IMG/VR virus record: IMGVR_UViG_3300042992_001376
Location: 1-64,000 of that record
DNA: 64,000 nt
Strand: one strand, 5' to 3'
Source: a virus
Part shown: positions 23,350 through 41,864 of the stretch, piece by piece
How the letters are laid out: each line of letters begins with the position of its first letter
Position numbering within the stretch: position 1 is the first letter of the stretch
Notes under the pieces: model-generated
Seen by the model: only the letters and a program-made list of their open reading frames with translations
Told to the model about the DNA's origin: nothing
Databases searched by the model: none
Made by a program: the position numbers and the translations under genes

Positions 23350-26300
23350 CTATTCGTAAAATAATCCAAGAATTTGATTTAATGGTGCAAATGTACCTGT
23401 TAGTTTCATTGTATTTCCATTGTACACAAATACGATACCTTCGTTTGGAACTATTTTATCTTTTCCACCAATAGCGTTTAATCTTTGTAATTCCATTTTA
23501 AGTTTTGCTATCTTCTTTTCATCACCACCAGTCTTAACATCTGATATAGTTTTATCTAATCTATCCTTCATAGCTCTAACCGCAGAATCAGGGTTTGCTG
23601 TAAGTACTGAACTCATAAATGAAAGTACTTCAGAGCCAACACCCAAAAATATATCCTCAAAAGGTCTAATATTATCCTTTGCTATCTTAGCGTGGTCATT
23701 CTTATCAATACCAGTTGCCCAACTTAATACTTTAGCATCGGTAATGTTTTTATTGTCTAAACGGAATGATTTATCATAGAATGCCCATCTCTTAACCAAT
23801 CCCATTAGAGTTCTATTATCAATCGGAGATGGTGATTTCTTAGTTACAAAATCAGTCCACCATGCTTGATGATAATCAGCAATACCATCCGTATCGGATA
23901 GTTTAAACTTAGATTGTAGTTTTGTAATCTGTCCACTATATTTTCCTTTTAATGAAGTTAAGTTTTTTGATTGTGGTAACTTAACAACTGGAGGTCCTTG
24001 TATTGTATAAGCCGATTGTACGTTTTGATTTACTTGCTTAATCATACCAGCCAAAACTTTAGCTGCTTCTTGATTTTCACCAATTGCTATACCAGCTTCA
24101 TTATATTCCATTGTTCCATGAAATACTAATAGTGCTTGTCCATAAGGAATTACATTTACCGAAGTTGGATATATTACCTCCAAATTCATAAAACATGCAC
24201 CATTCTTAAAAACTTTTTCTCTTTGTTTTTCTGAAAGTGATTTTATTGCTTTTGATAAATCACTCATAGCAAAGTTGTATGCTTTTTCTAACTCACCTCT
24301 TCCGGCAAACTTAGTAGCTACTCCATTTATATCCAATGCCTTCTCACCTCTATTAGCTAGATGTCCTTTGTTTCTAGCAGCAACTAATCTTCCATTCACC
24401 CAACTGATTGCTAATGCTTGTCCATCAGTTTTTTCTCTTGTCAATTCCAACTTACCTTCTAATGCACGATTCACAATATCTTTAAGTTGTCCAAATGTTA
24501 AGTTAATTTCAGTATCAAATGGATGATTCATATGTCCATACGCACCACCTTCAGTTAATAACCCCTCAGTTATGTTTGGGTTATTATCAGTTCCACATTT
24601 GTGACACATATAGGTATCACTTCCACCTTCAGAAATTTTCCAACTCCAACCACAATTATCACAAATTACTTTACCATTTTCTACTCTTTCACTAATCCCA
24701 CCACCCAATGCGTATGGTTCGTTATATTGTAATTTCTCAGCGTTAAATTTCTTTCTTAATCTTTTAAGAACTTCTTTATGTTTATCAATCCATGCTTGGT
24801 CTGGGTAACCCATTCCAATTCCTTCAAATGCTGATTTGGTTTTTACTTTATACCAACCACCACCCGGTGTTCTGAATATTCTTGCAGGTATTTCTAATAT
24901 TCCATTTGATGGTAATTTAGAATGATACTTTGAATCAATATGAACAACCTTTACAATGAATACTTTTTTCTTATTATCAGCTCCAATCAATTCAACTTCT
25001 AATGGAACTGCTACTCCACCTATTTTAAGTTTACCACCAAAGATATTACCTTTAGTGTATGCTTCTTCTACTGATTTTTTAACCATTTCATATCCTTTAT
25101 CTTCGGTATCCTTTGTATTTGTTTGATGACCAGGTTCTGTTTTTTTACTATCATCAAAATCAATTGTATCCAATTCTGCACCATATCCCATATCAGGTGT
25201 ATATGTTCCCGATTTGTGATGTTGTAAAAAATTATGGTCTATTGTACCATCCGATTTATGATTTTTTGAATTAATATTTTCATTTTTACTTATTTCAATT
25301 GCTCTTAATTGCTTAAGTGCTTTCTCTTTAGTATCATGTGTTCCTAATCTATCACCACCATCCTTTGGATATACCACCCACTTACCATCAATATGTTTGA
25401 TTGTTTCAACAGTCAATTTCATTGATTCTTTGCTTCTAAAATCTCTAGTTCCACCTTTATTATCTTTAAATCCGAATGATTTATAGAATTGGATTAATCT
25501 TCCCTTAGAACCCCCAAAATCAGATGATGGAGTTAAGAATACATCTTTTTTGGTTTTCTTTGCATAAGTAATAATATCATTCATTACTTTTGTACCAATA
25601 CCCTCACTTCTTTTTTCTTTTGGAACAACTATTCTGTGAATTTCTAAGTATTCTGGATATTCATATACATCCAATTCCACACCATGTTTTTTCCCCAAAT
25701 GAGAGTCTAACGTTTCAGCAATTACTGATTCAAATTTATATTCAGGTGTTGTTGTTTTGAATTCACCTTTTCTCATTATAGTTTTTGCAATAGCTTTATT
25801 AGCTTGAAGCATAAATGGTATATTGATATTAGTTCTATTATCCTTTGCTACAACTTGGTTGTATTGAGTTAAGAATTCAACAAATTTCTTTTTATTTCTA
25901 CCTAATCTTTTAAAGAACCCAGTTAGTTCTGCTGCTGATATTTCCTTACCATTTCTCGTATCATTTAATCTATCGAAAAAATGTTTATCAGTAAGAACGA
26001 TATCAATTGGATTTAATTGTCTATCAGCGTATTTATCAATTTGTTGTAAATCAGCCATTGGGATTTCGTTAATTACCGATTCGTTTTTACCAGTATCTGC
26101 TTTTTTAGCAGCAACACCAATTTCTTCTGCAAATTTATTTGACATTGGTATCACATCCTTTATATCGGCATCAATAACAATAACTTTCATATTAGCAGGT
26201 TTCCCATCTCTAATTGCGTTTGTTGTTACAGCTGCCCAACGATGATGACCATCCACTACATATCCATCTCTACTTACATAGATTGGAGCAGTAATCTTTG

Positions 26301-27822
26301 GATGATTCGGGTCATTCTCTAATGCCTTTGCCATACCAGCTACCTTTGCACCAACTAATTCAGATTGAGTTGCTTTTAGAGAATCCGATGGTAATTCAGT
26401 TTGGATAGTTTTAATACCCTTTCTTTTCAATAGTTCTCTAAACATTGGTTCCGTATCAACTTCACCATTTATATCTTTTTCCATACTTGCCGCAGGTGAA
26501 CCTTCGGTTGGTTTGCCTTTAAATTGTGGCATTTCCTCACGAGGAATTCCAGCATTACCAGCACAATATAAGTTTGTTCCAGCTACAGTTATTTTACATA
26601 AATTGTAATTAGGAGCTGCTTCACCATTTTCTTTTGCCTGATTTGTTAGTTGAACCAACTTATCAATCTGCATTGAAATTTCTCTTTGTTGCTTATTTGA
26701 AATTTTAGGAATATCCGATTCTGAACTAAATGTATCTGAATCTGCTTTTGGTAATACCTTAGTTACATTATCTAATGCAACATTTGGTATTTCAGTTTTG
26801 GGTTTTTCTTTTTGCTTAACATCAGGTGCATGTTTAAACATATCCGAACCGGCTACTTTAGTTCCTTTAGATGGTTCCGATTTTGTATCACTAGCTCCAT
26901 CTATTTTAACATACTTACCACCATCATTCTTTGAAAAAGATGGAGAAGATTCATCATCCTCTTTACCTTTTTGTTTATACACACCATGTCCAATATGAGT
27001 GTATTTGGAATCATCATTTTCATCTTCAAAGATTACTTGATATCCTTCCTTTATCATTCTAAAAGTTGCTACCTTTTTACCATTGATAGTTGGCATTCCA
27101 TGTTCATCTTTTCCAATAGTTTTTACAATAACTTTTTTATTTTTAAATCTACCCATTAAAATGGTATCTCCGATTTCAACATCTAATGTAATACCTTCAT
27201 CTAAATTAATTGATTCTGGTAATTTGGAAAGTTTATCAACAACCATATCAAAAATTGATTGATTGAATTTACCATAAGCTTTCTTTACAAAGAAATCTTT
27301 TTTATCCTCAGTACTACCTTTTTTTAAACCAATCCTAACATCAGTACCACTAATTGCATTTGGTTGTGCTGGTGATATAAAAACATACCCCCTATCAGCA
27401 TATCCTTCCAATTCAATACTATCTTTGTATTTTTCAAAATACTTCCCACCCAAACGACTTGAATCTTTCTCACCAACCACAGTTATAAATGCAGTAGTTT
27501 CTTTATTGAATTTGCTTAGGATTTCAGTTGGAGCATAGGGATTTTTGACCTGAGCTATTTTGTTTGATGGGATACCAAACATAGTGGTCATTACCTTTAC
27601 TTTCTCCTTAAAATTGAATGGGGATTTTTGATTGTCTGTTTTATCAGAGGTTCCGATATAAACATTATTTTTTCCAAACTTTTTTACTAATGTTTGGTAA
27701 GTAGCGAAGTGCCCTTTATGAAAAGGTTGAAAGCGACCAGAGTAAACAACAACTAAGTCCTTTACACTGCTCGCTTCTCCTAATAATATACTCTCTACTA
27801 AAAACTTTGATAAATCACTCAT
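23350..27822 (-). CDS. giant multi-enzyme internal protein (NMNAT-like, ParB-like, GNAT, zinc finger, nucleic acid ligase-like)
   Basis: A 1490-residue protein. Domains in order: an N-terminal helix ending LGE-A at 16-17, like a capsid-targeting leader; a nucleotidyltransferase (22-195) with SGRFQPFHKGH, as in nicotinamide mononucleotide adenylyltransferases; a low-complexity linker; a ParB/sulfiredoxin-like fold with DGHHRWAA at 524-531; a phage-specific domain (597-690); a GNAT acetyltransferase (705-800, RSEGIGTKVM); a WVVYPKDGG domain; a four-Cys zinc finger (C1054, C1057, C1073, C1076); and an ATP-dependent ligase-like domain with KTDGQ at 1131 and EGIVFVYNGNTMKLTG near the end. Junctions resembling prohead protease sites (LDE-G, INE-I, IAE-T, VEE-A, LTE-G) lie between domains. 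Probably packaged, cut and perhaps injected. Confidence 0.7.
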   Translation of the reverse strand: MSDLSKFLVESILLGEASSVKDLVVVYSGRFQPFHKGHFATYQTLVKKFGKNNVYIGTSDKTDNQKSPFNFKEKVKVMTTMFGIPSNKIAQVKNPYAPTEILSKFNKETTAFITVVGEKDSSRLGGKYFEKYKDSIELEGYADRGYVFISPAQPNAISGTDVRIGLKKGSTEDKKDFFVKKAYGKFNQSIFDMVVDKLSKLPESINLDEGITLDVEIGDTILMGRFKNKKVIVKTIGKDEHGMPTINGKKVATFRMIKEGYQVIFEDENDDSKYTHIGHGVYKQKGKEDDESSPSFSKNDGGKYVKIDGASDTKSEPSKGTKVAGSDMFKHAPDVKQKEKPKTEIPNVALDNVTKVLPKADSDTFSSESDIPKISNKQQREISMQIDKLVQLTNQAKENGEAAPNYNLCKITVAGTNLYCAGNAGIPREEMPQFKGKPTEGSPAASMEKDINGEVDTEPMFRELLKRKGIKTIQTELPSDSLKATQSELVGAKVAGMAKALENDPNHPKITAPIYVSRDGYVVDGHHRWAAVTTNAIRDGKPANMKVIVIDADIKDVIPMSNKFAEEIGVAAKKADTGKNESVINEIPMADLQQIDKYADRQLNPIDIVLTDKHFFDRLNDTRNGKEISAAELTGFFKRLGRNKKKFVEFLTQYNQVVAKDNRTNINIPFMLQANKAIAKTIMRKGEFKTTTPEYKFESVIAETLDSHLGKKHGVELDVYEYPEYLEIHRIVVPKEKRSEGIGTKVMNDIITYAKKTKKDVFLTPSSDFGGSKGRLIQFYKSFGFKDNKGGTRDFRSKESMKLTVETIKHIDGKWVVYPKDGGDRLGTHDTKEKALKQLRAIEISKNENINSKNHKSDGTIDHNFLQHHKSGTYTPDMGYGAELDTIDFDDSKKTEPGHQTNTKDTEDKGYEMVKKSVEEAYTKGNIFGGKLKIGGVAVPLEVELIGADNKKKVFIVKVVHIDSKYHSKLPSNGILEIPARIFRTPGGGWYKVKTKSAFEGIGMGYPDQAWIDKHKEVLKRLRKKFNAEKLQYNEPYALGGGISERVENGKVICDNCGWSWKISEGGSDTYMCHKCGTDNNPNITEGLLTEGGAYGHMNHPFDTEINLTFGQLKDIVNRALEGKLELTREKTDGQALAISWVNGRLVAARNKGHLANRGEKALDINGVATKFAGRGELEKAYNFAMSDLSKAIKSLSEKQREKVFKNGACFMNLEVIYPTSVNVIPYGQALLVFHGTMEYNEAGIAIGENQEAAKVLAGMIKQVNQNVQSAYTIQGPPVVKLPQSKNLTSLKGKYSGQITKLQSKFKLSDTDGIADYHQAWWTDFVTKKSPSPIDNRTLMGLVKRWAFYDKSFRLDNKNITDAKVLSWATGIDKNDHAKIAKDNIRPFEDIFLGVGSEVLSFMSSVLTANPDSAVRAMKDRLDKTISDVKTGGDEKKIAKLKMELQRLNAIGGKDKIVPNEGIVFVYNGNTMKLTGTFAPLNQILGLFYE

Positions 27823-28253: not shown

Positions 28254-29006
28254 CTAACTGAAATTTTCAGAAATTACACTTACCCCACGTTTTTGTATAA
28301 CCTGAGATGAACATCGATTTCCAAATATAATTGATTCATTAATATTATTTGTTTCCAAATACTTTGTAGTGAATCCTGCTACAAAAGTATCACCTGCTCC
28401 TGAGATATCCATTATCTCAACTTTATCAGTTGGATACATATTGTTTAAATACATACATCCATCTTTATCTAATGTGATTATTAGTTTTTCTAAAATCCAT
28501 TCATTATTTTCAATAAATGATTTATTATTTTGATATTCGGTTCTGTTTAATTTAATGAACTTTAAATCAGTGCACCATTCTCCTAATTTTTTTTTAGTAT
28601 CACAAATTGTATTAGGGTGATTAAATGCTATTTTAGCAATATCAGTATCACTTAGAAATCCTTTGTTATAATCCGATATGACTATCATATCAAAATCATA
28701 AAAATTTATTTCAGAAAGTGTATTACCAATAGGCGGAACTACATCATCAATATCAACTCGTAAAAGTAAATGATTAAAACTTTCCTCAACATATCTCTTT
28801 TTTACAATCAATTGAGTATTACAAATCAATTCAGTTTTACAACCCAATGCTTCTAAATTTTCTTTAACATTATAAGCCATACCACCATTGGTGATTGTAT
28901 GTGATTCTATAAAAACAGGTGCAGGTCCTTCAGGTGATAATCGTGTAGCTTTTCCATAAACGAATTCATCTAAACATCCCTCACCTATAATTAATACTTT
29001 ACTCAT
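28254..29006 (-). CDS. HldE-N-like sugar kinase (PfkB/ribokinase family)
   Basis: A 250-residue kinase of the ribokinase superfamily, shorter than HldE-N (about 315). Matching HldE segments are RLSPEGPAPV at residues 22-31 (SPEAPVPV in E. coli), GGMAYNV at 41-47, a VISDYNKG strand near 109-116 and the anion-hole/catalytic ISGAGDTF with D206. HldE-N phosphorylates D-glycero-beta-D-manno-heptose 7-phosphate at C1 in ADP-heptose synthesis. It overlaps the nucleotidyltransferase gene by 8 bases; in E. coli the two activities are one fused protein. The substrate could be another sugar, since the central part is trimmed. Confidence 0.75.
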   Translation of the reverse strand: MSKVLIIGEGCLDEFVYGKATRLSPEGPAPVFIESHTITNGGMAYNVKENLEALGCKTELICNTQLIVKKRYVEESFNHLLLRVDIDDVVPPIGNTLSEINFYDFDMIVISDYNKGFLSDTDIAKIAFNHPNTICDTKKKLGEWCTDLKFIKLNRTEYQNNKSFIENNEWILEKLIITLDKDGCMYLNNMYPTDKVEIMDISGAGDTFVAGFTTKYLETNNINESIIFGNRCSSQVIQKRGVSVISENFS

Positions 29007-29388
29007 TTGTTAATATTTTAGTTGTACTGAAATCATCCATTCGATTAAAATACACAATTGATTTTGCGTATTGTTCTCCCACTATTGGTTTATTTTTATA
29101 ATCAGACCCAATTACAAATATATCAGGGTTATATGTTTTAATTACATTTTCTAATAATTCAGCTGAATCAAATATAACTACTTTACTAACTCCTTTAATT
29201 CTTTCCAAATTATACTTTCGTTCTTCTTCAGTATGGAACGGTCTATCTTCTCCTTTTAATTCCTTTACTCTCCTATCGGAATCAATTCCAATAATAACAA
29301 TATCACCAAAGGCAGATGCGAACTCAATCATCTTAAAATGCGCATGATGTAAAACATCAAAACATCCATTTAACCAAACCTTTTTCAT
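28999..29388 (-). CDS. HldE-C-like heptose-1-phosphate nucleotidyltransferase
   Basis: A 129-residue cytidylyltransferase-fold enzyme, the size of HldC/RfaE2. It has LNGCFDVLHHAHF, in which the HxGH motif is H14-H15-A16-H17 (Gly replaced by Ala), then IGIDSDRRVKELKGEDRPFHTEEERKYNLERIKGV and FVIGSDY, and ends in the DDFSTTKI form of the ISSTxx motif. The close order of these segments follows E. coli HldE-C. It would join the sugar 1-phosphate to ATP giving ADP-heptose. It overlaps the upstream transferase by 4 bases and the kinase by 8, so all are co-translated. A TagD-like CTP enzyme is a less likely alternative. Confidence 0.75.
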   Translation of the reverse strand: MKKVWLNGCFDVLHHAHFKMIEFASAFGDIVIIGIDSDRRVKELKGEDRPFHTEEERKYNLERIKGVSKVVIFDSAELLENVIKTYNPDIFVIGSDYKNKPIVGEQYAKSIVYFNRMDDFSTTKILTNE

Positions 29389-30536
29389 AGAAACTTTTCT
29401 AATTCATTAATAACCATCTGAGATGTAATTGCTTTAGTACATTCAAATTGCCTATCCGTACCTTTATGGTCTGGACACCAATTCCAATCACCAGCATCTA
29501 ATTTTAATCGGTTAAAGCATCCACCACATTTATCTTTAGGTGAAGTTATTCTAACACAATCTTGCATTTCTGCCCAATCATATGAGAATCCACTAATCAA
29601 TACCGTCTTTGTACCCAATGCCCAACTTAACCAACTTAACCCACTACCAATACCAATGAATGCTTTTGATTTTCTCATTTCATCCATTACTTTTTCCAAA
29701 GAACCGGCTGGGTGTTTGACTACTCCAGTTGGGTGTTTATTACCCATATAATCATTATTCTCTTGTGATAATAGTTTAACTGTATAACCTTTATCATTTA
29801 ACCAATTCACTACTTCTTGCCAACCATTTGGGTTATTCCAATACTTAGATTGAGCAGTTCCATGTATTGCTATTGTTATTAACTTATCATCTTTAACAAT
29901 ATCTGATGATGGTAACTTTGGTTTTATTTCTTTATATGGTAATCCCAATATATCAGAACCCATTTTTTGCATTGTTTGGGATTTAAAATCGTTTGGATTT
30001 TTTCTGTTATTTACACTACCATCTTCATTATAGAATAAACCAACAGTATACATTGCGTATAAATTTTCAACACTTTGACCTGGTTTTACAAATTCTATAT
30101 TTGGATATTGTGACTCTAACATTTCGTTATGAAATGTAGATACAATTAATTCACAATTATGTACTTTCTGAAATTCGTCAAAGTATGGAAACCATGCTAA
30201 TGTATCACCCAATGCTTTTGATGATAGTGCTAGATAAACTCTCTTATTAGTTGCGGTATAATCATGTTCAAAAAATAAAGTATTACCTTCCCATATTTCA
30301 ATTCTCCAATCTATAAAATACTCAATATTACATTTAGCCCAAGTATTGTTTGATAATTCGGTTGTGAATAAAACATTACCATTACGTTTGTTTATAAACT
30401 TAACATTGTATTTACCCGTTTGGTTTCCCAATACTTCAGCCCAAGGACCATTTACGAAATGATAATTTACTTTATTTCGTACTTCAACAATGTTATTTAA
30501 ATTTTTAGTTAATTTATCGTAAATCATTAATTCCAT
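29385..30536 (-). CDS. TibC/BAHT-type protein O-heptosyltransferase
   Basis: A 383-residue transferase closely following the autotransporter heptosyltransferase (TibC/BAHT) family. The N-terminal beta-domain includes NYHFVNGPWAEV and WRIEIW; the catalytic domain has SSKALGDTLAWFPY with D111, ENLYAMYTVGLFY, SDILGLPYKEIKPKL and HGTAQSKYWNNPNGWQ with K231; and the C-terminal part carries four cysteines, C337, C340, C354 and C366, matching the iron-finger of TibC. In bacteria these enzymes form rings and use ADP-heptose to modify serines of autotransporter adhesins. With the two HldE-like genes directly downstream, it probably modifies a phage or host surface protein with heptose. Confidence 0.88.
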   Translation of the reverse strand: MELMIYDKLTKNLNNIVEVRNKVNYHFVNGPWAEVLGNQTGKYNVKFINKRNGNVLFTTELSNNTWAKCNIEYFIDWRIEIWEGNTLFFEHDYTATNKRVYLALSSKALGDTLAWFPYFDEFQKVHNCELIVSTFHNEMLESQYPNIEFVKPGQSVENLYAMYTVGLFYNEDGSVNNRKNPNDFKSQTMQKMGSDILGLPYKEIKPKLPSSDIVKDDKLITIAIHGTAQSKYWNNPNGWQEVVNWLNDKGYTVKLLSQENNDYMGNKHPTGVVKHPAGSLEKVMDEMRKSKAFIGIGSGLSWLSWALGTKTVLISGFSYDWAEMQDCVRITSPKDKCGGCFNRLKLDAGDWNWCPDHKGTDRQFECTKAITSQMVINELEKFL

Positions 30537-32689
30537 TTTTTTACTTCTCTATCAATAAGAGAAAATCCATCTGCTTGTTTAACATACATTTTATTTGTAG
30601 TATATCGTAATTTAGATTCTTTATTAAACACATCAGTTAACCATAAATCATATCCCTCCCATAGGGTATCATTAAATCTATCAATCCACCAACTCTTTGT
30701 TCTATTTGGTATTAGATACGCATGTGCTAAATCTTGGTTTGATGCAGTTTTACTGAATAAATCATCAATGTATTCTTTACTTCTGGAATTATTGTTTGAT
30801 AATCCAATAAAGTAAACATCATCTCTTTCAGAAATAAAACATGCTTTATGAACTGCTTCAACAAATTCTTTTAATCCAGTGAATATAAACGCATCAGCTT
30901 CAAATACTAATGTATAATCAAATTCATCATCCATAGCTTCTAATGCTCCCCTATGTGCGTTAAAGCACCCATAATGCCTACCCGTTAATGGACCTAATCC
31001 ATTCCCAAAGTTTCCCGGCTTATCCGATATCTGATTTGGTCTTTTACAAAAATCAGATGGTGGTGTTCCATCAAATGGAGTATTTACAATTGGTTGATAC
31101 ACCATTCCATAACTTTCCAATTGTTTTAGTGATTCTGAACTAATTTGTTCTCTCAAATCATTTGGCTTAGTCATCAAATGTTTAATTTGAATCTTTGGTT
31201 TTTTTCTAACAAATGAACGATATACGTGCTTTGCTTGATTATAAAAAAATTCATCAGCTGCTCTAGTAACCCCCGGAAAGAAACTTCCACCATAATCATC
31301 TCCACTAATAACACCACCCGGTTTTACTTTATGATACCAAAAGTTTAAATCGGATTTTAAAGAATCATAAGTATGACCCGCATCCAACATAATAAAATCA
31401 ATTGAGTTATGTTGAAATTGATTTGATGCGTTTTCAGATGTATCCTTTATTACGTTAAATAATTTTGAGTTATTACTTAACATAGTATTTTCCATAAATT
31501 CTGAAAATATATCCCCACCAAATCCACCAACTATTGTATCATGTATTTCTTCACCATCGGTACCTTTCCAAGTATCAACAGTTGTAAATTTAATATCTTT
31601 ATTAGAATCTTTAATTAAGGTAGCCATATGATTGGTTGATTTACCCAACCATGCACCCAACTCAACAAATACATCACCATCGGTTCCATTTTCAACCATT
31701 TCATTATACAAATGTTCATATGAAAACCAACCAGGAATTTCATTAAATTCAGGTTGTAGTTTTTCTAATATAATTTGTTTGGTTTGATTTAGGTTATCAT
31801 CGATATAAGTAACCAATTCATTATTATCATATGAATCCAAATATGTGTGTAGTTTTCTGAATATAGATGGTAATCCATATCCCAATGCCTCTTTAATAGA
31901 TAATGGATTTAATTCCAATTTAGAACTAAAGTAAAACATATCCGATGCTTTGTAGAATTTATCTACATCACTACGTTCACCCCATACAATACAATTATCA
32001 GGTTTGTGTTTCATTATTGGTCCCCAATATGATTCAAAGTTCATAGCTTGGTTTCCGATAAAATGAAATTTAATTTTATATTTTTCTAATAATCTAGCTA
32101 CGTTGAATATTTCACCCTGATTCTTACCTTCAGTAAATAATCCAACCATAAGAACATGCTTCCAATCAGATTCAAATCCCAATTCGTTTTTGAATTCGTT
32201 TTTATCATACTCAATAGTTTCTATTGGATAATCCCATACACGTGTATCTACTCCCACCAATTCAAATCTTCGTCTACTCCATTCAGATACTAAAACATAT
32301 CTATCTGGATGATATTTGATTTCATTTGGATTTGTATGAGAACCATGTGTAGATGCTACAATATAGTAATTTCTACTATTGTCAAAAATAGTATCTAATA
32401 TATTGTGAGCTAAAAAATGTTCGGGGATTTCCGTAAAATGAATTATGTTTGGTTGAGTTGATTTAATAATATCCACAAGTTCGGATTTATTATCACCCAA
32501 TGTGTACAACTTACATAAATCAGCTATTTGATTCTTTTGTACTACAAAGGCATCACCAGAGTGATTGTTTACCTCAACTACCTCAATATCAAATTTATCT
32601 TTAAAGATTTGAATTTGCTTTAAAAGGTATTGTGGCATCCCACCAGTTGAGAGATGGGATGCTATATATAACAATTTTTGTTTTGACAT
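30527..32689 (-). CDS. fusion: GT4-like glycosyltransferase, SAM methyltransferase, GT25-like domain
   Basis: A 720-residue three-domain protein. Residues 1-305 resemble GT-B glycosyltransferases (ASHLSTGGMPQYLL at the start, VGLFTEGKNQG near 182, and LELNPLSIKEALGYGLPSI near 258-275 for the sugar-nucleotide site). Residues about 315-490 are a class I SAM methyltransferase (VFVELGAWLGKS, IDFIMLDAGHTYDSLKSDL, KPGGVISGDDY). Residues about 520-720 resemble GT25-type transferases (GCFNAHRGALEAM, TLVFEADAF with acidic residues 597 and 599). It opens the sugar operon behind a host-like promoter and overlaps the heptosyltransferase by 10 bases. It probably extends or caps the glycan. Confidence 0.72.
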   Translation of the reverse strand: MSKQKLLYIASHLSTGGMPQYLLKQIQIFKDKFDIEVVEVNNHSGDAFVVQKNQIADLCKLYTLGDNKSELVDIIKSTQPNIIHFTEIPEHFLAHNILDTIFDNSRNYYIVASTHGSHTNPNEIKYHPDRYVLVSEWSRRRFELVGVDTRVWDYPIETIEYDKNEFKNELGFESDWKHVLMVGLFTEGKNQGEIFNVARLLEKYKIKFHFIGNQAMNFESYWGPIMKHKPDNCIVWGERSDVDKFYKASDMFYFSSKLELNPLSIKEALGYGLPSIFRKLHTYLDSYDNNELVTYIDDNLNQTKQIILEKLQPEFNEIPGWFSYEHLYNEMVENGTDGDVFVELGAWLGKSTNHMATLIKDSNKDIKFTTVDTWKGTDGEEIHDTIVGGFGGDIFSEFMENTMLSNNSKLFNVIKDTSENASNQFQHNSIDFIMLDAGHTYDSLKSDLNFWYHKVKPGGVISGDDYGGSFFPGVTRAADEFFYNQAKHVYRSFVRKKPKIQIKHLMTKPNDLREQISSESLKQLESYGMVYQPIVNTPFDGTPPSDFCKRPNQISDKPGNFGNGLGPLTGRHYGCFNAHRGALEAMDDEFDYTLVFEADAFIFTGLKEFVEAVHKACFISERDDVYFIGLSNNNSRSKEYIDDLFSKTASNQDLAHAYLIPNRTKSWWIDRFNDTLWEGYDLWLTDVFNKESKLRYTTNKMYVKQADGFSLIDREVKKWN

Positions 32690-33081: not shown

Positions 33082-33468
33082 TTATTCAGGTTGTATTGGG
33101 TAAATATATGGAGTTGTATTTGTAATATCTCGTAATGCTTGTCTATAAGTTGCCCACTCCAATTTCTTTTCAGCTGATAGTGGTGAATCATTAAATTGAG
33201 TCCAATCGGATTCAGATAATAGATTATTTCGTTTCAGTCTAACCGTAAATAAATCCCGTTCAGCTTGTTCATCATTAGTAAGTGGGTTTTTAGTATGTAC
33301 ACTATTTACATATTTACATCGAGTACTAATTGCCTCTTGCCACTCATCATAGGTGAGTTCAATTCGATTTTCCGTAGGAATATACTTAATATCCCAAACA
33401 TCAGTTGGGTAAAATCCAGTGTAATTCCCATCAGAATCGTATGTTGCAAAAATTTGTCTTTCAGTCAT
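33082..33468 (-). CDS. tail fibre assembly chaperone-like protein
   Basis: A 128-residue protein. The C-terminal part, RLKRNNLLSESDWTQFNDSPLSAEKKLEWATYRQALRDI, is the widespread signature of fibre-assembly or XkdW/DUF4376-like proteins found next to tail fibre genes. The N-terminal YDSDGNYTGFYPTDVW region is also typical. It follows the giant fibre gene by 26 bases, as these chaperones usually do, and would help fold or trimerise that fibre. Confidence 0.75.
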   Translation of the reverse strand: MTERQIFATYDSDGNYTGFYPTDVWDIKYIPTENRIELTYDEWQEAISTRCKYVNSVHTKNPLTNDEQAERDLFTVRLKRNNLLSESDWTQFNDSPLSAEKKLEWATYRQALRDITNTTPYIYPIQPE

Positions 33469-33494: not shown

Positions 33495-36400
33495 TTATCC
33501 CGTTGGAAGATTACCAATAGCTATCCAATACCCATCAACACTATCTAATACTAAACTAACACCAGATGTGGTAAGGTTATATATATGATTATATCCATTT
33601 GAACCATTTGAACTTCTATAAGATGCACAAGTTACAACCGGTGGTGAACCAAATGTTACAGGGAATGTTACGTTAGCAGAACTATTTATTCTTCCCCATT
33701 GTATAATACTACCATCTGATAATTTTTGGTAATTATTTGTAGACATTGAACTAGCAACCGTATTTGTTTGGTGTTGGTTTCCTAATCCAATAAGGTTATC
33801 GGTATAAGTATATGCAAACCTATTTGATGAGTTACCAATATTGTACAATGAATCAGATTCAGGTATAATATCACCCTTTGAATTAATAGCTGTTGAGGTA
33901 TCAACCCCAAGACCAACTGTTTTTTCAAAATATGATATACCACCGGCTGCTTTAAGTACTTCTTGATTAGCTGAACCTGCTGGTTTTCTTGGTATTCTAA
34001 CATAGGTATCAGGTGTTGATACTACTTGAATACCACCGGCTTTAATCTCAACGAAATTGGATGGAACAGATACATTTAATATAGTATCGTATGTTGGTGT
34101 ATTTGCTAAAGTTGGCCCAACAGTATGTGATTGGTATGTAAATGAATATGAATTAATACTGGAACCAATATTTGCTCTTTGACCCGAATACCCATAAAAT
34201 CTAATTGAATATCTAAATCTAATATTACCAGTAGATGTTAGATTCATTGAGCGCGTTACACCAGTTTGGGCAGAAACATTATTTTGATAACCACTTATAG
34301 TGTTGGTTGAAATATATGTCCAAGTACCATCATTATGTGATATAATATCATCTGAAACATAGTTATGAACTCCAGGTACAGAAAATGTATATACCCATTC
34401 ATCGGTTTTAATAATTTCAACACTATCAACTAATACCAATTTAATACCATTACCATCTTTGATGTTAATCATACTTTTACCAGCAACTAATTCAACAGTC
34501 TTTATTTGTTTATTATCGTTTAACCAAAATCCATGCGAATCAGATACTCTAATAGTTTTACCACCGGCTGATACTTTGTAAACTTTATCAACTTTTCTCT
34601 TTTTAATTTTAGCTATTTCAAATTCACTAAATTTGTTTACTTCAGTATTATCTAATTTATCATTCCAACTCCATGCTATTATTTTTTCACCTTCAACAAC
34701 ATCTTTAGCAAGAATAGTTTCACCAGATGATAATATAATTTTAGTATCACCAGTTACGGATACAAAACTTTCAAGTTTTACGTTGTGGGTTAATATACCA
34801 TTAACATAATAAGTATGCTTACCAGATACTCTAATGTTATAAACATCATCGGTTTTCTCATTTATAGTTATTGATGTTATCTCAACTTCTTCATTTTCTG
34901 AATTTAGGAATATATCTCCAACATTTATTTTATCAGTTGTTTTAATACACCAAACACCATTTTGTTTAATAATATGTTTGTGTGAGTGTGTACATTCAAT
35001 TAATCCATTATTTATATTGTAAATTTCATTATCAGCATATGATTTGATATCCAACACCTCTTCAATTGTTTTTTCGGAATCGGATATATGGGTTGCAGTC
35101 CAATCATTTTCTTCGGAATATTTTGGTGTTAATGAATCAATATCTAATGATTTAATAAAATCACCAATTTGAATATCTTTAATTTGTTTGAATGAACCAT
35201 CACCCATTTCAATTAGTGATGTTCCAACTAAACACGTTCCACCTCCCCCTTCTTCTATATATTCTCCGGTATAATAATTACCAGCATTATATGAACTAAC
35301 AGCTGCGGCTGTTCCAAGTAAAGTTCTACCCACAACAACACCAGTAGAAATATTAACTGCTTCTAAATTTAATTCTGCGTATGCAACAGATGGTGATGAA
35401 TACCCACCATGGAATTGCCCATTGAATGTAGGTAAATACGATGGGTATGATGTGGTATGACTAACTCCTGCTGGAATTGATACAGATACGGCTGGTATAT
35501 TTAGTGCAACTTCAAGTGCTCCTGCTGCTGTAACATTATATGAACCCGTTGATGGTAATGATACCATATAACTCGAATAAACAAAATTGGCATTAGATGT
35601 ATTTGTTGTTACCGATTGTGGTGTTGGATATACAACCCCCGAACCCGTAAACTGAAAGTATTTAACATCACCTGTGGTTGTTGTTAATTCATTTGAAGGT
35701 GATATAATTACCTTTTTTTCACTACCAGTATAAAATTGTAATTCAGGTAAAGATGGGTCAAATATTATTTCACTATTATCATCACGTAAATTACCACTAT
35801 CAGCATCAATAATCCAATCTCCGATTCTACCATCAGTTGCGTTAATACTACCAGATAAACCTGCATTATTAGCGTTTACATTTCCATTAGCATCAACAGT
35901 AAAATTATATCTAATTGGATTTGAACCAGAAATTATTCCTATGTTAATAGCTCCTCCATTTATTTCAGAACCATTAATTGTTGAACCTTGAACGTTTCCT
36001 GAGAAATTAACACCATCACCCGTATAGTTCAAATATGCACCATCTTTACTTCGTAATGAGAATAACGGGTCATCTGACCCAGATGGAAATCCTAAAAATA
36101 CACCAACCTCATCAAAACTTTGACTTAATTGCCCCATTGAAAGGTATGGTTTATCGGATTGATTTAATGTTGAACCTGATGTTGATAATCGCAATCCCTC
36201 ACCAGAAATTATTCTAAATTCACGACTACCCGCTGATAATGAACCTTGTGTATATGTGTAATCACCATTGGTATTGGGATAATAATAAGAGGCACTTGCG
36301 GCGGAATTAAATTTAATTGTTTGACCATATGGATTTGATGCTGATAGAAATAATCGAGTTTCATCTTCAGAAATTCCATAAATTTTCATTGCAGGGAAAT

Positions 36401-39400
36401 TCAAAACATTACCAATACCCAATACAGCTACATCAAATGCTTTTATAATATGAGATTTTAAATCACTTGGTACTTCTGGATATGCACTTTCAGGTTGGTC
36501 ATAAAGTAATTCTTGTATAAAATCATAATATGATAATGGAAAATCACCAGTTTGCCTTACTTCTAAATAATTTGCACCAGATGGCCATGCAATATATGAG
36601 TCTAAAGAAGAAGATACGACTTGCAGTGATGATGTTGTGTGGAATGCAATTTGATAAGATGAACTATCTGCATATAATCCATTTGATAAAAATAATTTTG
36701 AATTACCAATTTCACTATTACTTGCACTATTACTTGCGCTTAATATTCTATGATTCGTAGTAAGTGTACCAAATACCGTTAAAAGTGCAGAACCACTACC
36801 ATCAAATGGATTAGGTCCTTTAAGTGCTCTATTTGCTCCAAAACCTACTAGATTATTCAACCCAGCATATACATCATTATGTAGAGATGCTGTTACTTCC
36901 GTATTATATTGATATCCAACGGGGAATGTAGTTGGGAAGTAGATACCAGATGGGTCAATTATCCATCCACCAAATTTACCAGCAGATGCTGATACAATAC
37001 CAGATACATTTAATTCATTTCCATCCCAACGTAAGTGTCTTGTACCATCACCATTTTCAATTGATAATAATCCAGTTGTTCCAGCAGTTCCAGTAGGTCC
37101 ACCATCTTCAGTTACACCAATATAAACTCCCTTTTGTCCATAACCTTGAATTGATTGTCCGATTGATATATATGGTTCACTATCTCCACCATAAATTGTA
37201 ATTTGTGGATTAACATCATATGAAGTTGCTGGTGAACCTACATTAATTGTATTTTTAATAAATGATTCTTCGAAGATACCAATCTTAGCTGCTACAAAGA
37301 AATCTTCTTCTCCTAACTCTTCCCAATAATCAGTTTGAGTATTAGGTTGTTTGGCGCCAATTAAAGTATATCCAGAGGGTACAGTATCAATTGATTGAGT
37401 ATATAATCCAGAAACAGTATTTGATAAATAAGTATGAGGACCCGATGGTAATTTAGTTGCGTAATACATCTCAGGTGTACCATCTCCATTCTTATCAAAT
37501 AAAACTGCATCTCTCCTTTTCTGATTTAAATCAAAAAGATAATTAGTTGAACCACTCCACTCTCCTCTAAATACAACACCAGGACCAGTTGCTCCTTCAA
37601 ATACTGTTGTTAATGATTGTGATAAGAAATAAGTTGCTCTACCATTTTCTATATCAACTTTATAAACAATTGTAGCTGCTTTATTATCTTGTGGATTTGC
37701 CCAAGTTTGAATTGGTGCCACCGTAGCAGGACTTCCTGTTGGTCGATTTGTTTGAGTTATAAATCCGGGTTTACTATATAATGATGCTGAGAATTCTCCC
37801 AATGTACCAATAACATTACCAATTAAATCTAATGTTTCCTCAGAGTAAGTACTAACATGCGTTAATTCAGTAGTTCCTTTAAATGCTCTAATTTGTGTAC
37901 CAGTACCAGTTAACGTTGTACTTCCATCAGTTTCAACTAATACAGCAGTTGCTGGATTTGTTAATGAAACTTGATAGTTATCAGCTCCCGCTTTTATACC
38001 AGTAATAGTTACTTCAGATGTAGCAATTACCCCAGAGGTAGTATTACCATCTCTAATTTGAACTTGCCATGTTGCATTTTCGCCAGGAGATGTAGCATCA
38101 CCGGAACCAATTTCAAATACATTATCAGTACTAATTGTACTATAAGCAAATCCATCTTTAAAATATTGGTAATAAGTTTGAGATGCGGTAACATTAAATG
38201 CAGTTGCCGTTAAAAATATTGAATCTAAGGGAGAAGTTACTACACCATCTCCATCAAAATTAACTACTAATGATGATGCAGCCAAACTAACCGAACGAGC
38301 ATTTACTCCTTCTTTTTGTTTTGTAAAAGATTGTGTACGAGTTACATATTGTGAACCAGTTACAATACCATTTGTAATTGAAAATGGTCTTATTAAAATT
38401 GAATAATCAATACTAGCTGAATCATCCGTCATATTACTCATTGATACAAATAACATTGTATCATTTAACCCATTATCAGTTGTTTCCGTTTTTGATGCAG
38501 TTAATAAACCAACAGTAATATTATTTACCGAAATAGATGCGGTAAATGTTCCTGGTAATTCTTGTGAATTAAACTCTAAATATTCATCACCTTGCTTAAC
38601 TTTTAAAGTTGTGTTTGTTGTTGTGTAATCATATACACCACCATTTTCATCAGCAGATAACGCGAGTATTGTTGGGGCTAATTCAATATTGATTGCAGCT
38701 GCCCCATCAACACTTTTTTGGAATTGTTGAAAGAAACTTTGTGTATAATAAGATGCGGTATAGAATGGATGAATTTCTAATTTATATTCAACACTAGCGG
38801 TTAAATCAGTCATATTGCTAAATCCACTTATACTCATAGATGCATCTCCCATTATTTCATCAAAGGTAGAATATTGAATTCCTTTTGTAATAATAGATGC
38901 AGTTGTAAATGTACCCGGTTTTTTACTACTTGTAAATATAAGTGGTAAGAATCCCTGCGTTATAGTAATATCCGTAGCTGCTGTTTCATAACTAAATACT
39001 CTACCTCTTTGGTCAGCATTTAAAGTTATTGGATTTGGATTAATTTTTACTACAATTGCATCATCACCCGGGTCTCCATCGGGTACAGATACGAATGTTT
39101 TATCAATACTAATAGATGCTGATGTATAATCTTCTAAATAAGTAAATTTAGTACTTAATTGTTTTGTTTGAACTGCTTCATAAAATGGAATACCATTTTG
39201 ACCGGGAATACCACTATTAATTATATTATTATCAAAATCCGTTACCTCAACACTAATTCTTCTATCAAATGTACCGGTAACATAAAACATATAGTAATAT
39301 GGTTCAATTGTTTCCGGGTCAACAGACATCGATGGGAATATATTCAATGTACCACTTATAGGTGCTTCGTTTGTTCCTCTCAAATAGAATGAACCAGTTA

Positions 39401-41864
39401 CTCTACCAATATTTGGAGTAAACTCTCTTTCGGTTCTTGATTTAATACCAAATTGTTCGGTATCGATTGGTATAAATCCAGATGCTAAACCATCTTGTAA
39501 ATCGGTTAGGATAATTGAAGTTAAAATATCATTTTGAGTTGGACCATCCATAAGGAAAACCGTCAACTCCCCATCAATAGAATCTCTATTAAATGTTGCG
39601 TTATAATTCAACTCACCACTACCAGTTGTACCAGCTTTTAATCCTCTAATAAATCCACTACTACTTGCTTCAGATAATAGATAATATGATGATGTTGGTT
39701 GTCCTAATGGTGTTAATGATGATGATAATACTCTTAACTTTGCATCGGAGAATCCAATTTGTGGTAATCCATTTTTTAATATAATTTCATTTGTACCATC
39801 AATACGAATAGCTTGTAGTTCTAAATCGTTATCAGAACTATTCTTTATAAATGTTCCTCTATAAGGTCTAATTTCAAAGTTTACACCACCCTTACCATCA
39901 GCAACTCTTGTAATTACAACTTCATCAGTTACTCCTTCTACTTCTCCAGTAAATCTGATATATTGTACAGTGATATCATTTCTAGAACCAGTAAAATTAG
40001 AAACGTTTAATGTTGGAGTAAGTGTGTTTATATTATTTAATAAACCCGGATATCTTCCACCAATATATTCAGATGGTAATATATAATCACCAAACTCATC
40101 ATAGGCACCAGACGTATATGTGATTGAACCAGTTATTACACTTGTTTCAACATTAAATATAATTGTAGTTGGTGGTAATGGATTAGCAGGTGCAGATGCG
40201 GAATCAAACGCAAAATATAATTGATTTGGTGTAATTGTAAGACTCTTATTATAAAGATTCAAATTACCACCATCAAATGTTTTTGTTTTTTCTACTGCTA
40301 CTGGAATGTAATTATTGTTAATATCGTAGAATTCAAAACGATAATCAAATGTTTCTTTTTGTAATGTTTTTGGTACAGTTTGTACAAATGTTATTTCATC
40401 AGGTGAAAATGAAGTTTCTTGCGATGCTTTAAAACTAATATCACTTATATACCAATCACTTCCCTTAACTTCAAAATATAATCTAGCATTATCAAAATCA
40501 TTAGCTATAATATTTTCACTTAAGTTTACTTTTTGTAATACTGAAGTTGATGAATCAATTGTAGTAATTGTTTGAGATGTAGGTGTTCCATTTAATGAAC
40601 CACTTAAAAATACTTTAATAAAATCACCAGTTGTATTTTGTGATTTTCTTGCATTTAAATTTAATGTATATTCAACACCTTGTTGGATACTTAAACTTTG
40701 AGTTGTATAAAAATACGTTCCCGCATTTGAATTTATTTTGGCCGAATTAAATAAGAAATCTCTATTAAATTCAACCGAAACTGCATTTGATGAGGTTAAC
40801 CAATAATTATCTAACCTAATATCAGTTAAATTACCATAGTATTCTTCAGTAGCAGTTACAGTTTCAATATCTCTTAATAATTCATTAGATTCTAATTGTA
40901 AATCTTGAACAAATTCATAATCAGTAAGATTTGATTGAGAACGTCTAAATACTTTAACTCTTGCCGCATCACCAACGAATGTTTTCATATCGGTGATATT
41001 GATTTTTGCAAATGAACCAGTAAGTGCAGTTGCTAAATCAGAAACCCCCTCCAAATAATTGAATGTTACTGAGTAGTTTTGATTTGTAAATGATTTTACA
41101 ATACCATTTTGAGAATATGGTGTAGTTACTATAATTTCAGTATCGCTTACAATATCATCAATTATACTACTATAATTTAAGCTATCTACCGTAATAGTTT
41201 GACCAACAACAGACCCTGTCCAATTATCACCACTAGCTACATTTAATCTGTATGATGTTGGTAATGTGAATCCCGTTAATTTTGCGTTTTCATTTGGTAC
41301 TAAAGGAACACCATTAACAGTACCTGTCTTAGTTATTGCTAATGAATTATTATTAAAAATTGGTTTATTTATTTCAGTAATCTCAACTTGAGGTCTACGA
41401 TAAAATCTAACTCTATCTTCATTGGCAAGGTTTTTATTAACTTGAAAAGTTCTTTCCCATTTAACATTATATGCACCCTTCCATTCAGCAGGAATATCTC
41501 TTGTTACACCATTGTCAACATATTGATTAAGTTCACCTAATACAGTAACTTTACCTAATCCAATTGGAGTATCTTCATAAATGTAAACTGCTATTAGTTT
41601 GGAAATTCCTTCATAATATTCAGGTATACCATTTCCAGGTTCGTAATAGATAGGGTCACCATTAACATCTAATATTTCAATTTTGATTTCAGTAGATGGT
41701 TGCAAGTATTGCGAACCTTCAATTAGGAATCCATTTTTACCACCTGTAAACGTATCATTAAATTCAGTAATTCTGAAATAATCCGAATTTGGGTTATTAT
41801 CTATTACAAATGTACCAAATGATGATAAATTTTGTTCTGGTGAATATTTTTTAATTCTAGCCAT
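33495..41864 (-). CDS. giant tail fibre with tandem Hint domains
   Basis: A 2789-residue fibre. Residues about 1-1000 hold beta-sandwich domains; residues about 960-1400 hold Ig-like repeats (two parallel copies with TLKVKQGDEYLEFNSQELPGTFTASI and DITITQGFLPLIFTSSKKPGTFTTASI). Residues about 1590-2190 hold fibre modules with FGGWIIDPSGIYFP and a glycine-rich region. Two Hint domains occupy residues 2211-2361 and 2369-2511. The last 100 residues (SDGSIIQWGRINSSANVTFPVTFGSPPVV, ending YWIAIGNLPTG) are a gp53-like receptor-binding tip. It has its own promoter motif and a chaperone gene just downstream. Probably the main host-recognition fibre. Confidence 0.75.
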   Translation of the reverse strand: MARIKKYSPEQNLSSFGTFVIDNNPNSDYFRITEFNDTFTGGKNGFLIEGSQYLQPSTEIKIEILDVNGDPIYYEPGNGIPEYYEGISKLIAVYIYEDTPIGLGKVTVLGELNQYVDNGVTRDIPAEWKGAYNVKWERTFQVNKNLANEDRVRFYRRPQVEITEINKPIFNNNSLAITKTGTVNGVPLVPNENAKLTGFTLPTSYRLNVASGDNWTGSVVGQTITVDSLNYSSIIDDIVSDTEIIVTTPYSQNGIVKSFTNQNYSVTFNYLEGVSDLATALTGSFAKINITDMKTFVGDAARVKVFRRSQSNLTDYEFVQDLQLESNELLRDIETVTATEEYYGNLTDIRLDNYWLTSSNAVSVEFNRDFLFNSAKINSNAGTYFYTTQSLSIQQGVEYTLNLNARKSQNTTGDFIKVFLSGSLNGTPTSQTITTIDSSTSVLQKVNLSENIIANDFDNARLYFEVKGSDWYISDISFKASQETSFSPDEITFVQTVPKTLQKETFDYRFEFYDINNNYIPVAVEKTKTFDGGNLNLYNKSLTITPNQLYFAFDSASAPANPLPPTTIIFNVETSVITGSITYTSGAYDEFGDYILPSEYIGGRYPGLLNNINTLTPTLNVSNFTGSRNDITVQYIRFTGEVEGVTDEVVITRVADGKGGVNFEIRPYRGTFIKNSSDNDLELQAIRIDGTNEIILKNGLPQIGFSDAKLRVLSSSLTPLGQPTSSYYLLSEASSSGFIRGLKAGTTGSGELNYNATFNRDSIDGELTVFLMDGPTQNDILTSIILTDLQDGLASGFIPIDTEQFGIKSRTEREFTPNIGRVTGSFYLRGTNEAPISGTLNIFPSMSVDPETIEPYYYMFYVTGTFDRRISVEVTDFDNNIINSGIPGQNGIPFYEAVQTKQLSTKFTYLEDYTSASISIDKTFVSVPDGDPGDDAIVVKINPNPITLNADQRGRVFSYETAATDITITQGFLPLIFTSSKKPGTFTTASIITKGIQYSTFDEIMGDASMSISGFSNMTDLTASVEYKLEIHPFYTASYYTQSFFQQFQKSVDGAAAINIELAPTILALSADENGGVYDYTTTNTTLKVKQGDEYLEFNSQELPGTFTASISVNNITVGLLTASKTETTDNGLNDTMLFVSMSNMTDDSASIDYSILIRPFSITNGIVTGSQYVTRTQSFTKQKEGVNARSVSLAASSLVVNFDGDGVVTSPLDSIFLTATAFNVTASQTYYQYFKDGFAYSTISTDNVFEIGSGDATSPGENATWQVQIRDGNTTSGVIATSEVTITGIKAGADNYQVSLTNPATAVLVETDGSTTLTGTGTQIRAFKGTTELTHVSTYSEETLDLIGNVIGTLGEFSASLYSKPGFITQTNRPTGSPATVAPIQTWANPQDNKAATIVYKVDIENGRATYFLSQSLTTVFEGATGPGVVFRGEWSGSTNYLFDLNQKRRDAVLFDKNGDGTPEMYYATKLPSGPHTYLSNTVSGLYTQSIDTVPSGYTLIGAKQPNTQTDYWEELGEEDFFVAAKIGIFEESFIKNTINVGSPATSYDVNPQITIYGGDSEPYISIGQSIQGYGQKGVYIGVTEDGGPTGTAGTTGLLSIENGDGTRHLRWDGNELNVSGIVSASAGKFGGWIIDPSGIYFPTTFPVGYQYNTEVTASLHNDVYAGLNNLVGFGANRALKGPNPFDGSGSALLTVFGTLTTNHRILSASNSASNSEIGNSKLFLSNGLYADSSSYQIAFHTTSSLQVVSSSLDSYIAWPSGANYLEVRQTGDFPLSYYDFIQELLYDQPESAYPEVPSDLKSHIIKAFDVAVLGIGNVLNFPAMKIYGISEDETRLFLSASNPYGQTIKFNSAASASYYYPNTNGDYTYTQGSLSAGSREFRIISGEGLRLSTSGSTLNQSDKPYLSMGQLSQSFDEVGVFLGFPSGSDDPLFSLRSKDGAYLNYTGDGVNFSGNVQGSTINGSEINGGAINIGIISGSNPIRYNFTVDANGNVNANNAGLSGSINATDGRIGDWIIDADSGNLRDDNSEIIFDPSLPELQFYTGSEKKVIISPSNELTTTTGDVKYFQFTGSGVVYPTPQSVTTNTSNANFVYSSYMVSLPSTGSYNVTAAGALEVALNIPAVSVSIPAGVSHTTSYPSYLPTFNGQFHGGYSSPSVAYAELNLEAVNISTGVVVGRTLLGTAAAVSSYNAGNYYTGEYIEEGGGGTCLVGTSLIEMGDGSFKQIKDIQIGDFIKSLDIDSLTPKYSEENDWTATHISDSEKTIEEVLDIKSYADNEIYNINNGLIECTHSHKHIIKQNGVWCIKTTDKINVGDIFLNSENEEVEITSITINEKTDDVYNIRVSGKHTYYVNGILTHNVKLESFVSVTGDTKIILSSGETILAKDVVEGEKIIAWSWNDKLDNTEVNKFSEFEIAKIKKRKVDKVYKVSAGGKTIRVSDSHGFWLNDNKQIKTVELVAGKSMINIKDGNGIKLVLVDSVEIIKTDEWVYTFSVPGVHNYVSDDIISHNDGTWTYISTNTISGYQNNVSAQTGVTRSMNLTSTGNIRFRYSIRFYGYSGQRANIGSSINSYSFTYQSHTVGPTLANTPTYDTILNVSVPSNFVEIKAGGIQVVSTPDTYVRIPRKPAGSANQEVLKAAGGISYFEKTVGLGVDTSTAINSKGDIIPESDSLYNIGNSSNRFAYTYTDNLIGLGNQHQTNTVASSMSTNNYQKLSDGSIIQWGRINSSANVTFPVTFGSPPVVTCASYRSSNGSNGYNHIYNLTTSGVSLVLDSVDGYWIAIGNLPTG
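34332..34760 (-). other. Hint domain 2 (143 residues, Ser at position 1)
   Basis: Residues S2369 to N2511. It starts SVTGDTKI (the usual Cys1 replaced by Ser), has an SDSH in the block B TxxH place, and ends with VYTFSVPGVHNYVSDDIISHN, the C-terminal intein blocks F and G. The residue after the final Asn is Asp, not Cys/Ser/Thr, so standard splicing is not expected. It is too short for a homing endonuclease. Confidence 0.8.
34782..35234 (-). other. Hint domain 1 (151 residues, Cys at position 1)
   Basis: Residues C2211 to N2361. It starts CLVGTSLIEMGDGS, has THSH as the block B motif (ECTHSHKHII), and ends DVYNIRVSGKHTYYVNGILTHN. The following residue is Val, so it resembles type A bacterial intein-like domains, which cleave or splice atypically. 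A seven-residue linker joins it to Hint 2. Confidence 0.85.

Follow-up and report, generated by a model that had tools for sequence, protein, structure and literature searches.

A tail fibre gene with two adjacent Hint domains

The DNA analysed here (the window) is a stretch of 64,000 nucleotides, positions 1 to 64,000 of virus record IMGVR_UViG_3300042992_001376. On its minus strand lies a long tail fibre gene that carries two Hint domains of different types near the tip of the encoded protein. The features relevant to this region are:

33495-41864, minus strand: tail fibre gene (2789 aa), an uninterrupted single open frame that holds both Hints
35265-35534, minus strand: beta-rich flank before the Hints, approximately residues 2111-2200 (pLDDT 74-89 by blocks; counterpart in relatives)
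34782-35234, minus strand: Hint1, Cys1 type, C2211-N2361, with T2292 and H2295 in block B and H2360 and N2361 at the end (PT-HINT, alignment)
34761-34781, minus strand: spacer VKLESFV, residues 2362-2368, seven residues between Hint1 and Hint2
34332-34760, minus strand: Hint2, Ser1 type, S2369-N2511, with S2441 and H2444 in block B and H2510 and N2511 at the end (Intein_splicing, 23-row alignment, AlphaFold2, VIA-align)
34125-34331, minus strand: beta-rich flank after the Hints, approximately residues 2512-2580, beginning with the +1 residue D2512 (pLDDT 70-87 by blocks; alignment)
33510-33725, minus strand: Gp53-like_C domain at the fibre C-terminus, residues 2714-2785 (PF21882, 1.3e-6)
33082-33468, minus strand: gene for a tail assembly chaperone, next after the fibre gene (PF16778, 5.9e-16; phrog_8716, phrog_4912)
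55966-57168, minus strand: Hint-less orthologue of a tail-region protein of the L123 type (32% identity over 356 columns)

An earlier, sequence-only reading of this DNA had placed the domain ends at C2211, N2361, S2369 and N2511, with a seven-residue gap and no Cys, Ser or Thr at +1, all of which is confirmed in the translated ORF. Both domains end in HN; the residues that follow, V2362 behind Hint1 and D2512 behind Hint2, are unable to act as a splicing nucleophile. Hint1 comprises 151 and Hint2 143 residues, leaving no space for an endonuclease, and a mobile intein equipped with one was rejected because the domains are too short. By eye, the spacer resembles the tails VKEL and VQQEL that follow HN in Cys Hints of neighbour genes in two relatives (L023, L026). 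The N-terminus of the fibre shows likeness to unannotated stretches of Microcystis phage Mel-JY01 and phage LR756508, and Gp53-like_C is also found in the fibre of phage L019, its place being taken by Peptidase_S74 in L024.

In eight other contigs, the bases of the fibre gene are 100% identical to the window (the whole gene in six, 7218 and 2103 bases in the other two), which makes an assembly artefact an unlikely source of the tandem Hints. When longer sequences are searched with Intein_splicing (E up to 0.05), the fibre is the sole match; this holds for a 270,865-base and a 168,635-base contig of this phage and for L059, a 252,603-base record of the L019-type phage.

Domain identity and predicted fold of Hint1 and Hint2

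Scanned as separate pieces, Hint1 scores 28.6 bits against Pfam PT-HINT (2e-6; cut-off 27.7), and Hint2 reaches 35.8 bits against Intein_splicing, exactly the cut-off (8.4e-9). Both fall under the Pfam cut-offs when the whole 2789-aa protein is scanned (22.8 bits for Hint1, 32.6 bits for Hint2), and both exceed them in a scan of a 586-aa region. The NCBIfam model intein_Cterm is over its cut-off in both pieces and intein_Nterm in Hint2.

The AlphaFold2 model of Hint2 is good, with 10-residue blocks mostly at pLDDT 79-95 and one of 54. In VIA-align comparisons, whose rows cover mostly model residues 304-453, it superimposes on the Ssp DnaB intein 1mi8 (Z 20.7, rmsd 1.9, 137 residues) and on BIL (bacterial intein-like) structure 2lwy (Z 18.9). 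Models of Hint1 are poor (pLDDT 51), and its Hint fold is suggested by sequence. The horseshoe fold anticipated for both domains is thus borne out by structure prediction for Hint2, and for Hint1 it is a probable assignment. A BUBL BIL is the top Foldseek match of both models, the BIL matches of the Hint1 model being low (TM-scores 0.3-0.4). Sequence profiles find the same BUBL BIL at 7e-10 with the Hint1 family and 2.6e-7 with the Hint2 family, and a C. thermocellum BIL at 6e-9 and 0.002, respectively; by this measure the Hint1 family lies nearer to BIL domains and the Hint2 family nearer to the DnaB intein (1mi8, 1.5e-9).

Hint2 recurs in a family of phage fibres

To what extent Hint2 is carried by related fibres is best judged from a scan with the flank behind it, which returned 25 loci, 23 of them with Hint2; copies of this phage and the L019 phage are counted in. 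This is the fair count of carriage, although its query, too, was built from Hint-bearing relatives. One of the remaining two loci (L057) ends before the Hint2 position and the other (L061) is without Hint2. A scan with Hint2 itself led to further uncultured phages (39 loci), whose rows carry the domain by construction. Once duplicates (identical or overlapping) and L095, which is truncated, had been removed and loci of another scan added, 22 distinct relatives were obtained, which together with the window form a 23-row alignment at 28-49% identity to the window segment. Ser-Hint fibres found later (L132-L136, L139, L140, L142) stand outside the 23-row counts. Intein_splicing is matched by 21 of the 23 fibres at E up to 0.01, and none of the 22 aligned relatives carries Hint1.

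Invariant in all 23 Hint2 rows are Ser1, Val2, the Ser and His of block B, the penultimate His and the terminal Asn, the block B invariance being partly selected, as most rows were found by scans demanding Hint2 block B or F letters. Among the 126 Hint2 columns outside the scan patterns, six are invariant, three of them being Ser1, His and Asn; the chance probability of 6e-5 serves only as a guide given the relatedness of the rows. The eight rows found through the flank (window included) likewise keep all five catalytic positions. The +1 residue, on the other hand, is free: Pro in eight rows, itself unusual, Val in five, Ser in three, Ala and Thr in two each, and Asp, Phe and Ile in one each, so that Ser or Thr occurs in 5/23; the -1 residue is variable too. 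When rows are clustered at 80% identity, Cys, Ser or Thr stands at +1 in 3 of 15 clusters, against 27% for these residues across the next 40 positions. Since the catalytic residues are invariant and +1 is free, both half-reactions seem to be under selection and splicing via +1 does not. Judging from this alignment, Hint2 is probably a long-standing processing domain of the fibre family, and it is the only one of the two Hints that appears to belong to that family.

Hint-free forms among relatives, which the sequence-only reading had proposed to look for, were found in three settings: the L061 fibre, which has a short Gly/Asn-rich loop where a Hint might lie (its flank similarity is weak, 21 bits), the orthologue at 55966-57168, and small proteins of L024 and L028. 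In bacterial genome contigs, 98 pattern matches to the Ser Hint gave no confirmed relative. No comparable Ser-Hint fibre was seen by tblastn in isolated or GenBank phages: one query returned three records, none spanning 80% of the query, another returned three records with partial matches, a further one had no match, and one retrieved the terminase inteins of nine Corynebacterium phage records.

Selection and possible exchange around Hint2

In 9 of 9 pairs of fibres, dN of Hint2 is below that of both flanks and dN/dS behaves likewise, bearing in mind that the pairs share sequences and some have few changes. In L027/L029, for example, Hint2 dS is 0.61 against 0.77 and 0.99 in the flanks, and dN is 0.065 against 0.29 and 0.28. 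A different pattern is displayed by L088, L091 and L093, in which Hint2 forms an island: its nucleotide identity is 81-98%, that of the nearest flanks roughly 48-70%. Between L088 and L093, dS is 0.07 in Hint2 and 0.63 and 0.53 in the flanks. The low dS points to either the Hint or the flanks having been exchanged, and the island is a candidate recombination or transfer block. From these comparisons, we read the region as a conserved processing core surrounded by a variable tip. The earlier proposal that the Hints could give diversity in host recognition goes further than these data, which place Hint2 among variable tips without demonstrating swapping.

Hint1 belongs to a separate group of Cys Hints

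Hint1 groups with the Cys Hints of L123-L129, its nearest relatives (support 100/99, 41-44% identity), and Hint2 sits within the Ser clade (support 100/100); the deeper branching that connects the groups is uncertain, its branches being long. The two domains therefore have separate origins, and a tandem duplication of one Hint is rejected by this grouping. The earlier reading took the pair as one unit; only Hint2 is part of the fibre family.

Proteins of the loci L123-L129 carry a single Hint near the C-terminus, in several cases behind Gly- or Pro-rich linkers. Their orthologue in the window (55966-57168), whose gene lies two genes from the one for a baseplate wedge protein (59314-61347), lacks a Hint and terminates in the Gly-rich end SGGGYGGGGGISRDS. 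The sequence behind the Hint in L126 and L128 looks like the start of a Peptidase_S74 domain (Pfam 0.0025 in L126, under the cut-off). Cys Hints are also found beside Ser-Hint fibres: of 25 loci tested (24 contigs), five (L023, L026, L029, L132 and L139) have a small protein with a Cys Hint at its C-terminus encoded immediately behind the fibre, and in the other 20 none was detected within 3.8 to 8 kb downstream. Such neighbour-type Cys Hints of L026, L023, L029 and L051 match phrog_38766, a "virion structural protein". The first 43 residues of the small protein of L029 match Alteromonas phage proteins, one of them annotated as tail fibre domain-containing; L024 and L028 encode a small protein that looks similar at its start, has a Gly-rich end and lacks a Hint. 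In the Cys-Hint alignment, rows were picked by Cys and HN ends and the letters of blocks B and F alone are informative; there, the block B His is replaced by Gln in the neighbour-gene proteins of L139, L151 and L156, so activity is probably not retained in every Cys Hint.

Outside these phages, Cys Hints form the C-terminus of tail-region proteins in phage NCTB and in jumbo phages of Erwinia and Yersinia, and tblastn alone adds Cys1 Hint tail-region proteins of Dickeya phage AD1 and further Erwinia phages. Like the Hints described here, those of NCTB, Alexandra, Yoloswag and fHe-Yen9-02 end in His-Asn; they follow a Gly-rich or SG/KG linker and are located at the protein C-terminus, in some cases of collagen-like proteins, whereas the fibre Hints lie between two flanks. 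The records call them tail fibre, virion structural, intein domain or hypothetical proteins and give no function. In NCTB (L101), a small "intein domain protein" gene (744-1205) with a Cys-Hint profile match and a degenerate-looking start comes behind a tail protein with a complete Cys Hint. Hint1 appears to be a later acquisition, the likely source being the class of Cys1 Hints that are C-terminal in other phage tail proteins behind Gly-rich linkers.

Tandem Hints in other phage proteins

The best 80 of 90 stretches with Hint matches correspond to 78 loci, of which 69 were examined for tandem Hints; the nine set aside are L051, L052 and seven further copies of this phage. No match was obtained in L188. 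Two ORFs counted as distinct when they differed in the last 200 residues, and a Hint was counted if the merged match was at least 90 residues. By these rules, 17 of 57 distinct ORFs (window fibre included) contain two to four Hints, 38 contain one and two contain none. Four Hints are present in L130, L131 and L153, three in L149, L162, L164, L166, L168, L169, L171 and L180, and two in L146, L157, L163, L165 and L167. Complete proteins of this set are about 640-920 aa long; all are from phages and carry the Hints in a row at the C-terminus, and most end in HNK; Pfam gave no match outside the Hint region in L163, L130 and L146. The earlier statement that tandem Hints in a phage fibre are undescribed was therefore too strong with regard to tandem Hints as such, which recur in 16 other distinct phage ORFs, none of them a fibre of this type; among the ORFs examined, a Cys and a Ser Hint of different origin within a fibre tip are seen only here. 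As a separate observation, a 1387-aa protein of a 484-kb phage (LR756508; L100, 13628-17788) contains, by eye, three insertions that look like inteins; the residues behind them are Ser, Thr and Ser, and two of the insertions lie near each other.

Comparison with known self-processing domains

Known A-type BIL domains mostly begin with Cys1. Like the Hints here, they combine a Hint fold, an N-terminal Cys or Ser and a terminal His-Asn with the lack of a conserved Cys, Ser or Thr at +1 (Amitai 2003, Dassa 2004, as cited in excerpts of PMC4031507 and PMC7765530). They are seated in variable parts of non-conserved proteins (excerpts of PMC2814812 and PMC7765530), as is Hint2, whose flanks outpace it in all nine pairs. 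Unlike them, Hint2 has a conserved Ser1, lies in a phage fibre tip and is a regular part of its family, and the protein joins two Hints of different origin. With class 1 inteins, both domains share Cys1 or Ser1, a block B Thr or Ser with His, and the terminal His-Asn, and differ from them at +1 (V2362, D2512; no Cys, Ser or Thr in 18/23 rows). The presence of Ser1 and Cys1 separates them from class 3 inteins, which have neither and carry a block F Cys; position 4 of block F, in the numbering we take to apply, is Thr in 19 and Ser in 4 of the 23 Hint2 rows and Asn in Hint1. In place of the sterol-recognition region of Hedgehog autoprocessing domains, Hint1 is followed by seven residues and then Hint2, and Hint2 by fibre sequence alignable to relatives.

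The BILs of the Tetrahymena BUBL1 locus (PDB 6tmm, 6y75) are the best profile match of the Hint1 family and among the best of Hint2; they belong to a ciliate protein, whereas a virion fibre is concerned here. The Ssp DnaB mini-intein, which splices with Ser at +1, resembles Hint2 in fold and sequence and differs in being inserted in a conserved enzyme. Peptidase_S74 chaperones are unrelated to Hints in fold and chemistry. They are self-cleaving at the tip of phage fibres and tailspikes (excerpt of PMC7582827), as proposed for the Hints. They are C-terminal, and L024 carries one beyond its Hint; the window fibre has a Gp53-like_C match at its C-terminus, and no Peptidase_S74 was found in it.

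Excerpts of PMC3556154, PMC6293099, PMC6892783, PMC5259590, PMC7412058, PMC7664689, PMC7765530, PMC4031507, PMC7582827, PMC6690015, PMC7468147, PMC10684548 and PMC2814812 place inteins, among named phage proteins, in terminases, polymerases, reductases, a deaminase and a minor head protein, and name no fibres. "Intein" and tail terms also occur in PMC12386605 and PMC10136315. Among the matches listed, titles and abstract beginnings from literature mostly outside subscription journals hold no account of Hint processing in a phage fibre. What we propose below is known chemistry in a new setting.

A proposed autoprocessing of the fibre near its tip

We consider it fairly probable that Hint1 and Hint2 are autoprocessing domains similar to A-type BILs, which would cut the fibre close to its tip and perhaps rejoin it. 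For type A BILs, an excerpt of PMC4031507 describes a proposed chemistry of an N-terminal thioester, C-terminal Asn cyclisation and ligation by the freed amine, with cleavage products dominant. Applied to the fibre, Ser1 of Hint2 and Cys1 of Hint1 would attack the preceding peptide bond to form an ester and a thioester, respectively, assisted by the Ser/Thr and His of block B; the terminal Asn would cyclise with the help of the penultimate His and cut the C-terminal junction; and the N-terminal ester would then be resolved by hydrolysis or by attack of a free amine. Cleavage is expected to outweigh splicing, given the lack of a conserved +1 nucleophile. The Hints would thereby be removed from between two beta-rich flanks, which may form one domain and which would stay together as a nicked unit or be joined by aminolysis; that cut parts may stay together is suggested by the co-occurrence of the flanks in the aligned relatives. 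The cleavage and joining of ends put forward in the sequence-only reading fit the invariant catalytic residues and the unconstrained +1 well. Processing may unlock the tip, time its maturation or join chains.

In one competing account, the fibre is spliced by the Hints, which would be ordinary mini-inteins whose demand on +1 is unusual or relaxed. The DnaB inteins, as best profile match and highest Z of Hint2 (1mi8), the matching flanks on both sides of Hint2 in relatives and the few rows with Ser or Thr at +1 would agree with this. Pro, Val, Ala, Phe, Ile or Asp at this position in 18/23 rows, with Cys, Ser and Thr no commoner there than nearby, a host protein that is variable at the insertion rather than conserved, and domains with no endonuclease space argue against it, and we regard splicing as unlikely. 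Similarly unlikely, in our view, is that Hint2 is kept mainly as a shared recombination block, or is mobile itself, with variable tips shuffled around it and chemistry being secondary. The identity island of L088, L091 and L093, where dS is low too, is what such a block would leave; in other pairs, however, dS of Hint2 is nearer to that of the flanks and dN far lower (L027/L029), indicating selection on the protein, and a DNA anchor alone is not expected to keep Ser1, His and Asn in 23/23 rows.

That the Hints are unreactive, folded ornaments or binding domains on the fibre would suit the loss of the block B His in some neighbour-gene Cys Hints, but is hard to reconcile with catalytic residues that are invariant amid variable surroundings, and we give it a poor chance. 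A composite variant, in which Cys1 of Hint1 forms the T2210 thioester and the amine of D2512, released by Asn2511 of Hint2, attacks it, would excise a 301-residue cassette and rejoin the tip; in trans, relatives with one fibre Hint and a Cys Hint in the next gene would ligate the Gly-rich end of the small tail protein onto the fibre. This scheme, too, strikes us as improbable.

Should the favoured BIL-like chemistry work, this phage family would cut or rejoin its own fibre tip with domesticated intein-like domains. This would provide a testable functional setting for BIL domains, whose natural role is little known, and phage fibres would gain a second kind of self-processing in addition to the S74 chaperone. 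Candidate single-domain cleavage modules are also offered by the conserved Ser1 family, in which +1 is free.

Genes downstream of the fibre

Downstream of the fibre, positions 28254-32689 encode a PfkB-type kinase, a cytidylyltransferase and a family 9 (heptosyl) glycosyltransferase, together with a 720-aa protein with glycosyltransferase and methyltransferase matches. Similar-looking genes lie behind the fibre in L019 and L074. The set is perhaps a phage-borne sugar pathway that coats the virion or the host surface. At 23350-27822, a 1490-aa protein combines a cytidylyltransferase-like N-terminus with a weak acetyltransferase-like segment.
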